Shown: positions 58,603-58,736 of the stretch, in pieces
Layout of the letters: each line of letters starts with the position of its first letter
Numbering within the stretch: the first letter of the stretch is position 1
Assembly: GCA_947585865.1 (NCBI GenBank)
Contig: CANPXH010000004.1
Location: 1-64,000 of the forward strand
Length of the DNA: 64,000 nucleotides
Source of the DNA: an uncultured Clostridia bacterium
GTDB taxonomy: Bacteria; Bacillota; Clostridia; Lachnospirales; CAG-274
Direction of reading: 5' to 3'
Notes under the pieces: generated by a model
Told to the model about the DNA's origin: nothing
What the model saw: only the letters and a program-made list of their open reading frames with translations
The model's database searches: none
Translations under genes and position numbers: made by a program

Positions 58603-58690
58603 TTGACAATAGTTGTAAGTAATTATATAATTATACACAAGGACAATGGCGCCCACGCAGCGGGATAAGTCTGCTGCTTTTTTGCGCCAT
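58603..58690 (+). promoter_or_regulatory. gdhA leader: consensus promoter, AATGGC hexaloop, intrinsic terminator
   Basis: TTGACA-17-TATAAT (58603-58631); GGAC-AATGGC-GCCC (58641-58654); GCAGCGG/CTGCTGC + TTTTTT inside ATGGCGC/GCGCCAT. Confidence 0.72.
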
Positions 58691-58736
58691 AGGTCACAAA
58701 AACGTATAATAAAAGCAAAGAACGGAGGAAACAAAA

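Follow-up and report, generated by a model that had tools for sequence, protein, structure and literature searches.

A single 5'-terminal hexaloop in the gdhA leader of an uncultured Clostridia bacterium and its probable membership of a NitR-like nitrogen-assimilation regulon

Results and discussion

The leader of gdhA in the analyzed window (the whole stretch of 64,000 nucleotides) is read here as part of a nitrogen-assimilation regulon controlled through antitermination by the only NitR-like ANTAR protein of the genome, an interpretation to which we assign a probability of about 0.65. An anatomy of promoter, hexaloop hairpin and terminator is common to the leaders of glnA, gltB, amtB and gdhA; it is gene-specific, and the ANTAR gene is linked to glnA. 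Within this leader family, gdhA is the least secure and most labile member.

Organization of the gdhA leader

The gdhA gene (58737-60068, plus strand) encodes a 443-aa NADP-specific glutamate dehydrogenase (NCBIfam NF006929, E 5e-234). Three elements upstream of it, all recognized in a preliminary description of this DNA, were confirmed: (i) a perfect promoter, TTGACA-17-TATAAT (58603-58631, plus strand), matching the consensus at 12 of 12 positions, whose -35 and -10 boxes and distance to the hairpin are conserved in orthologs; (ii) a 5'-terminal hexaloop hairpin, GGAC-AATGGC-GCCC (58641-58654, plus strand), with A1 and G4 in the loop and a single A-C mismatch in the stem, which is a candidate ANTAR (NitR) target; and (iii) an intrinsic terminator, GCAGCGGGATAAGTCTGCTGC-TTTTTT (58657-58683, plus strand), composed of a stem of 8 pairs, 5 of them G-C (58657-58677), and a T6 run (58678-58683). 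The predicted transcription start lies at about position 58638 (plus strand). Given the terminator and the U6 run, transcription of gdhA may plausibly end prematurely by default.

In the readthrough RNA an additional outer stem may form (58642-58695, plus strand), in which GAC.ATGGCGC (58642-58652) pairs with GCGCCAT..GTC (58684-58695), enclosing the terminator and the U-run. Its core, ATGGCGC (58646-58652) with GCGCCAT (58684-58690), lengthened by GAC/GTC, had been taken for the outer part of the terminator. The pairing does exist, but its 3' strand sits past the U-run and thus outside the intrinsic terminator. An antiterminator role of the outer stem was rejected as well, because the polymerase reaches this strand once it has passed the U-run. 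The readthrough RNA has a far more stable fold than its shuffled counterparts (z -3.7), while the terminated leader scores z -0.1, and the outer stem would best be read as a 5' stabilizer of the readthrough mRNA. A second locus resembling the DNA upstream of gdhA (L002) was dismissed, its similarity being confined to the surroundings of the ribosome-binding site.

The leader of gltB, encoding the large subunit of glutamate synthase (16490-21241, plus strand; NCBIfam NF008730), contains a promoter (TTGCAT-17-TATTAT; 16372-16400), a hexaloop hairpin (AAGC-AATGAG-GCTT; 16407-16420) and a terminator with a T-run (16414-16454; fold z -6.0), all on the plus strand. The 5' arm of this terminator starts within the hexaloop, and the last loop bases together with the 3' arm of the hexaloop constitute the foot of the terminator stem. 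The same kind of overlap was found in this genome at glnA and amtB, and in most relatives at glnA and gltB. Because the hexaloop forms the base of the terminator stem, the two structures are mutually exclusive at gltB, glnA and amtB. This exclusion, a feature of ANTAR targets, is absent at gdhA of the window, and the view that gdhA repeats the competing layout of gltB had to be abandoned: its terminator starts 2 nt beyond the hexaloop without overlapping it, and in the predicted fold of the terminated RNA the hexaloop and the core terminator coexist, the hexaloop being incompatible with the outer stem instead.

Neither the gdhA nor the gltB leader gave an Rfam match above the gathering score; the matches in the window were a T-box leader (3786-4006, minus strand) and a class A RNase P RNA (5475-5807, plus strand).

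The gdhA leader in related genomes

Among the five congeners, the AATGGC loop, the C-G closing pair, their position and the terminator are preserved at gdhA in this genome (G000), G002 and G003, while the other two (G001 and G004) have no U-run and a loop that begins with U instead of A1. The outer-stem pairing is held in all five, with bases changed and pairing preserved in G001 and G004. With its terminator set apart from its hexaloop, and with an outer stem that persists in the two congeners lacking A1 and the U-run, gdhA would belong to the regulon in a derived or decaying state.

The strongest competitor of our reading goes a step further. It accepts the regulon but supposes that gdhA of the window has dropped out of it, leaving the hexaloop as a relic, the terminator to tune basal expression and the outer stem to protect the 5' end of the mRNA. 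We consider this rather unlikely, though it is the most credible of the alternatives. The hexaloop of the window species is weak: it contains the A-C mismatch, has -2.4 kcal/mol as drawn, is predicted to be unfolded as an isolated 14-mer, was negative in a strict test for at least three pairs and can coexist with the terminator. In addition, the outer stem is the feature held in five of five congeners, and of 23 ANTAR-bearing genomes only 4 have a site of the covariance model R1 (promoter plus hexaloop; see below) at gdhA. Speaking against complete loss are the preserved loop, closing pair, position and terminator in G000, G002 and G003, and the similar hexaloops found before gdhA in other genera and in another family. 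The sister-species hairpin, GGGC-AATGGC-GCCT, has -4.4 kcal/mol.

The incompatibility of the gdhA hexaloop with the outer stem, along with its compatibility with the terminator, could also point to control of opposite sign, whereby bound NitR would leave the terminator in place, block the outer stem and lower the level of the low-affinity glutamate dehydrogenase at nitrogen scarcity. The enzyme is usually the high-ammonium route, which would suit such control. Yet the outer strand is produced only after the terminator decision, and we know of no ANTAR protein that represses in this manner, hence we judge this alternative improbable. Antitermination by the NitR-like protein, with gdhA as a labile target, remains our preferred reading.

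In the gdhA leaders of two further relatives (G015 and G022; L013 and L031), the terminator that follows the hexaloop AATGAG has the complementary CTCATT in its own loop, and a kissing interaction between the two loops is possible.

Conservation of the hexaloop

Hexaloops of the form [A/G]NNGNN with at least 4 stem pairs were counted near the 5' ends of promoter-anchored leaders of relatives and compared with shuffled sequences. They were found in 17 of 21 leaders of glnA (shuffles: mean 1.4, maximum 6), 10 of 23 of gltB (mean 1.2, maximum 6) and 8 of 27 of gdhA (mean 1.6, maximum 7). The stem mostly starts 5-9 nt past the -10 box, as judged from predicted, unmapped start sites. Every seed leader of R1 has the closing C-G pair and G4, and loop position 1 is mostly A, sometimes G; A1 and G4 occur in both hexaloops of the window (AATGGC and AATGAG). 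Covariation in the seed stems amounts to 19 doubly changed cells versus 6.9 in shuffles, with 95% of cells paired, a figure that leans toward the hairpin because the seed leaders were selected for carrying one; the counts on promoter-anchored leaders given above are free of this bias.

These data bear on the idea that the leaders hold ordinary terminators, or another kind of attenuation, and that a hexaloop-like appearance arises from an A-tract and a G-run at the foot of the stem, with no role for an ANTAR protein. At glnA and gltB the terminator stem does contain pairs between the loop bases AARGG and CCUU(U) and, on these predicted pairings, A1, A2 and G4 are constrained also by the terminator itself. 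Nevertheless, the 5' arm of the hairpin, although outside the terminator, keeps its complementarity to the 3' arm through compensatory changes, the hexaloop counts exceed those of shuffles, and the gdhA loop lies wholly outside the terminator stem; together with the gene specificity and the ANTAR linkage, this makes the idea quite improbable. Least credible of all is that the inverted repeat serves a nitrogen repressor as DNA operator rather than being an RNA switch, for in spite of its location at the transcription start, a common operator site, its arms vary freely with pairing retained and only the loop and closing pair fixed, unlike a sequence-specific operator, and a terminator follows immediately.

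No excess of a second hexaloop (P1) upstream of the promoter was found: A1/G4 hexaloops occur in the 60 nt upstream in 5 of 34 leaders versus 2.7 +- 1.6 expected from chance. Likewise, the described two-hexaloop layout (P1 and P2 separated by a linker of 5-12 nt) was not observed in these leaders, as delimited by predicted start sites.

Genome-wide and class-wide distribution of the leader

Genomes were scanned with covariance models, of which R1, comprising the promoter and the hexaloop, was built from 21 leaders of glnA, gltB and gdhA. The gdhA leader matches it at 58603-58654 with 42.8 bits (E 1.3e-5), the gdhA of this very species being among the seed sequences. In this genome R1 ranks glnA, gdhA, gltB and then amtB highest, the last of which lies outside the seed. 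Sites directly upstream of amtB were detected in 14 genomes, in three of them with weaker scores only. A site is present at 49 of 107 nitrogen genes in genomes with the ANTAR gene and at 0 of 11 in those without it, a small comparison that is confounded by kinship.

The preliminary description had suggested that such leaders be sought genome-wide and their enrichment at nitrogen genes assessed. A class-wide search with R1 in 291 genomes sampled over Clostridia bore out this expectation: the best 25 loci outside this genome comprise 16 glutamine, glutamate or ammonium genes, seven ORF-less transcripts and two others. The 16 nitrogen loci are (i) eight glutamate-synthase-like GATase_2 genes, five of which come from one genus and were named via close identity to scanned ones, (ii) glnA and glnN, (iii) two amtB genes, (iv) a gdhA belonging to another family, and (v) carA, glmS and a purF-like glutamine amidotransferase gene. 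The R1-type leaders of the last three genes, all glutamine consumers, were found in distant Clostridia (L276, L283 and L293).

A common nitrogen-linked leader, as had been proposed for gdhA and gltB, is strongly supported by the top four R1 matches of this genome and by the predominance of nitrogen genes among the best class-wide loci; the response of the leaders to nitrogen is the part of that proposal that we infer.

Several other R1 matches were recorded. In this genome, an R1-like leader (AGAC-AAGGGG-GTCT) followed by a terminator precedes a gene resembling that of pyruvate formate-lyase, named from its sequence (G000:C18:34644-34698; L129). Matches of the same type and equal length occur in four congeners, the downstream gene having been checked as pfl in G002 only. 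A weaker match (G000:C22:23822-23870; L130) has an AAAGGT loop and a short terminator, and the small protein encoded downstream has no Pfam match. In another relative (G022:C120; L239), an R1-like leader and a terminator stand before a gene for a periplasmic binding protein of the amino-acid-receptor type. Some matches, for example G020:C109, G012:C22, L282 and L286, appear to be plain promoters and were discarded.

The NitR-like ANTAR protein and the proposed mechanism

The genome encodes a single ANTAR protein (PF03861, 53.9 bits), whose gene (L064:3644-4195) is located beside, and next after, glnA (L064:2210-3541). In a survey of this genome and 40 relatives, an ANTAR gene was found in 32 of the 41 genomes, nearly always as a single copy and usually beside glnA, and the glnA-ANTAR gene order is the same in most relatives. 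The N-terminal half of the protein is receiver-like but without the phospho-acceptor Asp, having IIMG where Rv1626 has VIMD. This residue is missing from all aligned proteins of the family and present in G034 and G037. Because of the missing Asp, the signal would be expected to arrive via a protein partner rather than a kinase. Glutamine synthetase, encoded by the neighboring gene, and the PII-like domain of AmtB are our guesses at such a partner. The C-terminal end of the AmtB protein of this genome (L219:991-2775; 595 aa) reads by eye as a PII (GlnK) domain.

The ANTAR protein is probably the reader of the hexaloop RNA, and we regard it as very likely that it controls the nitrogen regulon. 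In the proposed mechanism, a strong promoter would start transcription a few nucleotides ahead of one hexaloop, immediately followed by a terminator; under nitrogen need, NitR would bind this single hexaloop on the nascent RNA and the terminator would be prevented. That a single hexaloop suffices in this way seems likely, if somewhat less firmly so than control by the protein as such. At glnA, gltB and amtB, simple exclusion between hexaloop and terminator could bring about antitermination. At gdhA of this genus, given the separation of the terminator from the hexaloop, NitR would have to act sterically, or else gdhA has partly gone from the regulon. The layout provides no simple exclusion, and for this reason the chances that gdhA of the window species responds to NitR appear to us evenly balanced.

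ORF-less transcripts preceded by the same leader

One R1 match of this genome (C23:8760-8808, minus strand) is not closely followed by an ORF. The transcript that starts here, behind promoter, hexaloop and terminator, runs from about position 8808 down to 8470 of G000:C23 (minus strand; L128). Transcripts of this type are present in 12 genomes representing three genera of the CAG-274 family (the other loci are L168, L177, L243, L248, L260, L261, L257, L252, L254, L272 and L273). They share the order of promoter, C-RANGRC-G loop, first terminator and a hairpin with the invariant loop ACUCCUUCCUCUGUGC (anti-Shine-Dalgarno), and in most of them a second terminator ends the transcript. The hexaloop stem is short, often of two pairs. 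The outer stem of the hairpin, ACAACAU/AUGUUGU, is replaced by GCGGCAG/CUGCCGC in G043. No conserved reading frame was found in these transcripts, and an Rfam search of the candidate small RNAs gave no match. A 20-base motif of the unit matched ten contigs when the GTDB set was searched, in one case by chance. The locus L256 of Eubacterium oxidoreducens was rejected as a chance loop match with no promoter, hexaloop or hairpin nearby.

In f33, another Clostridia family, an R1-type switch precedes a different ORF-less transcript (L274, L275, L277, L279, L280, L281 and L292). It has a closing helix, GGCCGTTTG/CAAACGGCC, with a G-C to A-U change in L281, a conserved CTTTCTCCTTTA and a conserved CUUUCUCCUUUA stretch. 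An anti-Shine-Dalgarno sequence is contained in the transcripts of both types.

On the strength of these sequence features, the ORF-less transcripts are candidate nitrogen-controlled (NitR-controlled) small RNAs, apparently undescribed, under the same control as ammonium assimilation. Antitermination would produce the small RNA only under nitrogen need, and it would then block the translation of chosen mRNAs. The broader notion that one ANTAR protein runs the Clostridial nitrogen regulon by single 5'-terminal hexaloops, with dedicated small RNAs included, is offered tentatively.

The loop of the L128-type RNA is complementary to AAAAGCACAG..GGAGG, the ribosome-binding region of gdhA in the sister species, and less so to that of the window species (58711-58735). 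The predicted duplex energies are -21 to -23 kcal/mol in G001-G004; with only -16.6 to -16.9 kcal/mol, the site of the window species comes at rank 173 of 12,794 windows. In view of this weak score, and since the anti-Shine-Dalgarno loop matches many ribosome-binding sites, the modeled pairing at gdhA stays a lead. The best duplex match in the analyzed stretch (10860, minus strand) falls within the coding sequence for a PHP-domain protein and was rejected as a target.

Comparison with known systems

In solvent-forming Clostridium, the antiterminator NitR (glnR) is encoded beside glnA and has been proposed as the controller of ammonia-assimilation genes; the ANTAR gene described here likewise adjoins glnA. 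An antisense RNA was reportedly implicated in the control of glutamine synthetase in solvent-forming Clostridium by Fierro-Monti in 1992 (reference 40 in PMC4676874). ANTAR nitrogen regulons with glutamate synthase, glutamine synthetase and ammonium transporters among their members were predicted in 2012, and the NitR antiterminator of Clostridium is mentioned in PMC4676874. With its receiver-like N-terminal half devoid of the phospho-acceptor, the protein resembles the pseudo-receiver ANTAR proteins of the AmiR type, which suggests control by a partner protein, although no AmiC-like partner has been identified here; it differs from the phospho-activated response regulators of the EutV type by the missing receiver Asp.

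The leaders share with the dual-hexaloop ANTAR targets (EutV/eut of E. faecalis, NasR/nasF and AmiR/amiE; PMC3369931) the A1/G4 hexaloop on a short stem, a terminator overlapping the hairpin (here at glnA, gltB and amtB), a single ANTAR protein and the association with nitrogen genes. They differ in having one hexaloop, placed right at the 5' terminus of the RNA, instead of two, in the gdhA terminator that does not overlap the hexaloop, and in loop position 1, which may be G (glnA of this genome) or U (decayed gdhA leaders). As the predicted start sites leave no space for another hexaloop, the defining trait of the known targets, the leaders appear to represent a variant of ANTAR antitermination with a single, 5'-terminal hexaloop.

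For EutV, antitermination requires both hexaloops at a set spacing (PMC3369931; PMC8934654), while P1 and P2, each alone, are bound with similar affinity. The structure of EutV with RNA, published in 2022, showed that the protein grips one hexaloop at a time; the minimal motif was redefined as a single hexaloop, single-hexaloop targets were predicted and the extent of their use was posed as a question (PMC8934654). In that study single hexaloops were expected where no transcribing polymerase limits the time available, whereas those described here stand directly before terminators and would act during transcription. The idea of an ANTAR nitrogen regulon is thus already known, and the new part is the single 5'-terminal format. 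As a natural set of putative terminator switches with one hexaloop each and a defined regulon, the leaders make the extent of single-hexaloop use directly testable, and they suggest how many gut Clostridia may control ammonium assimilation.
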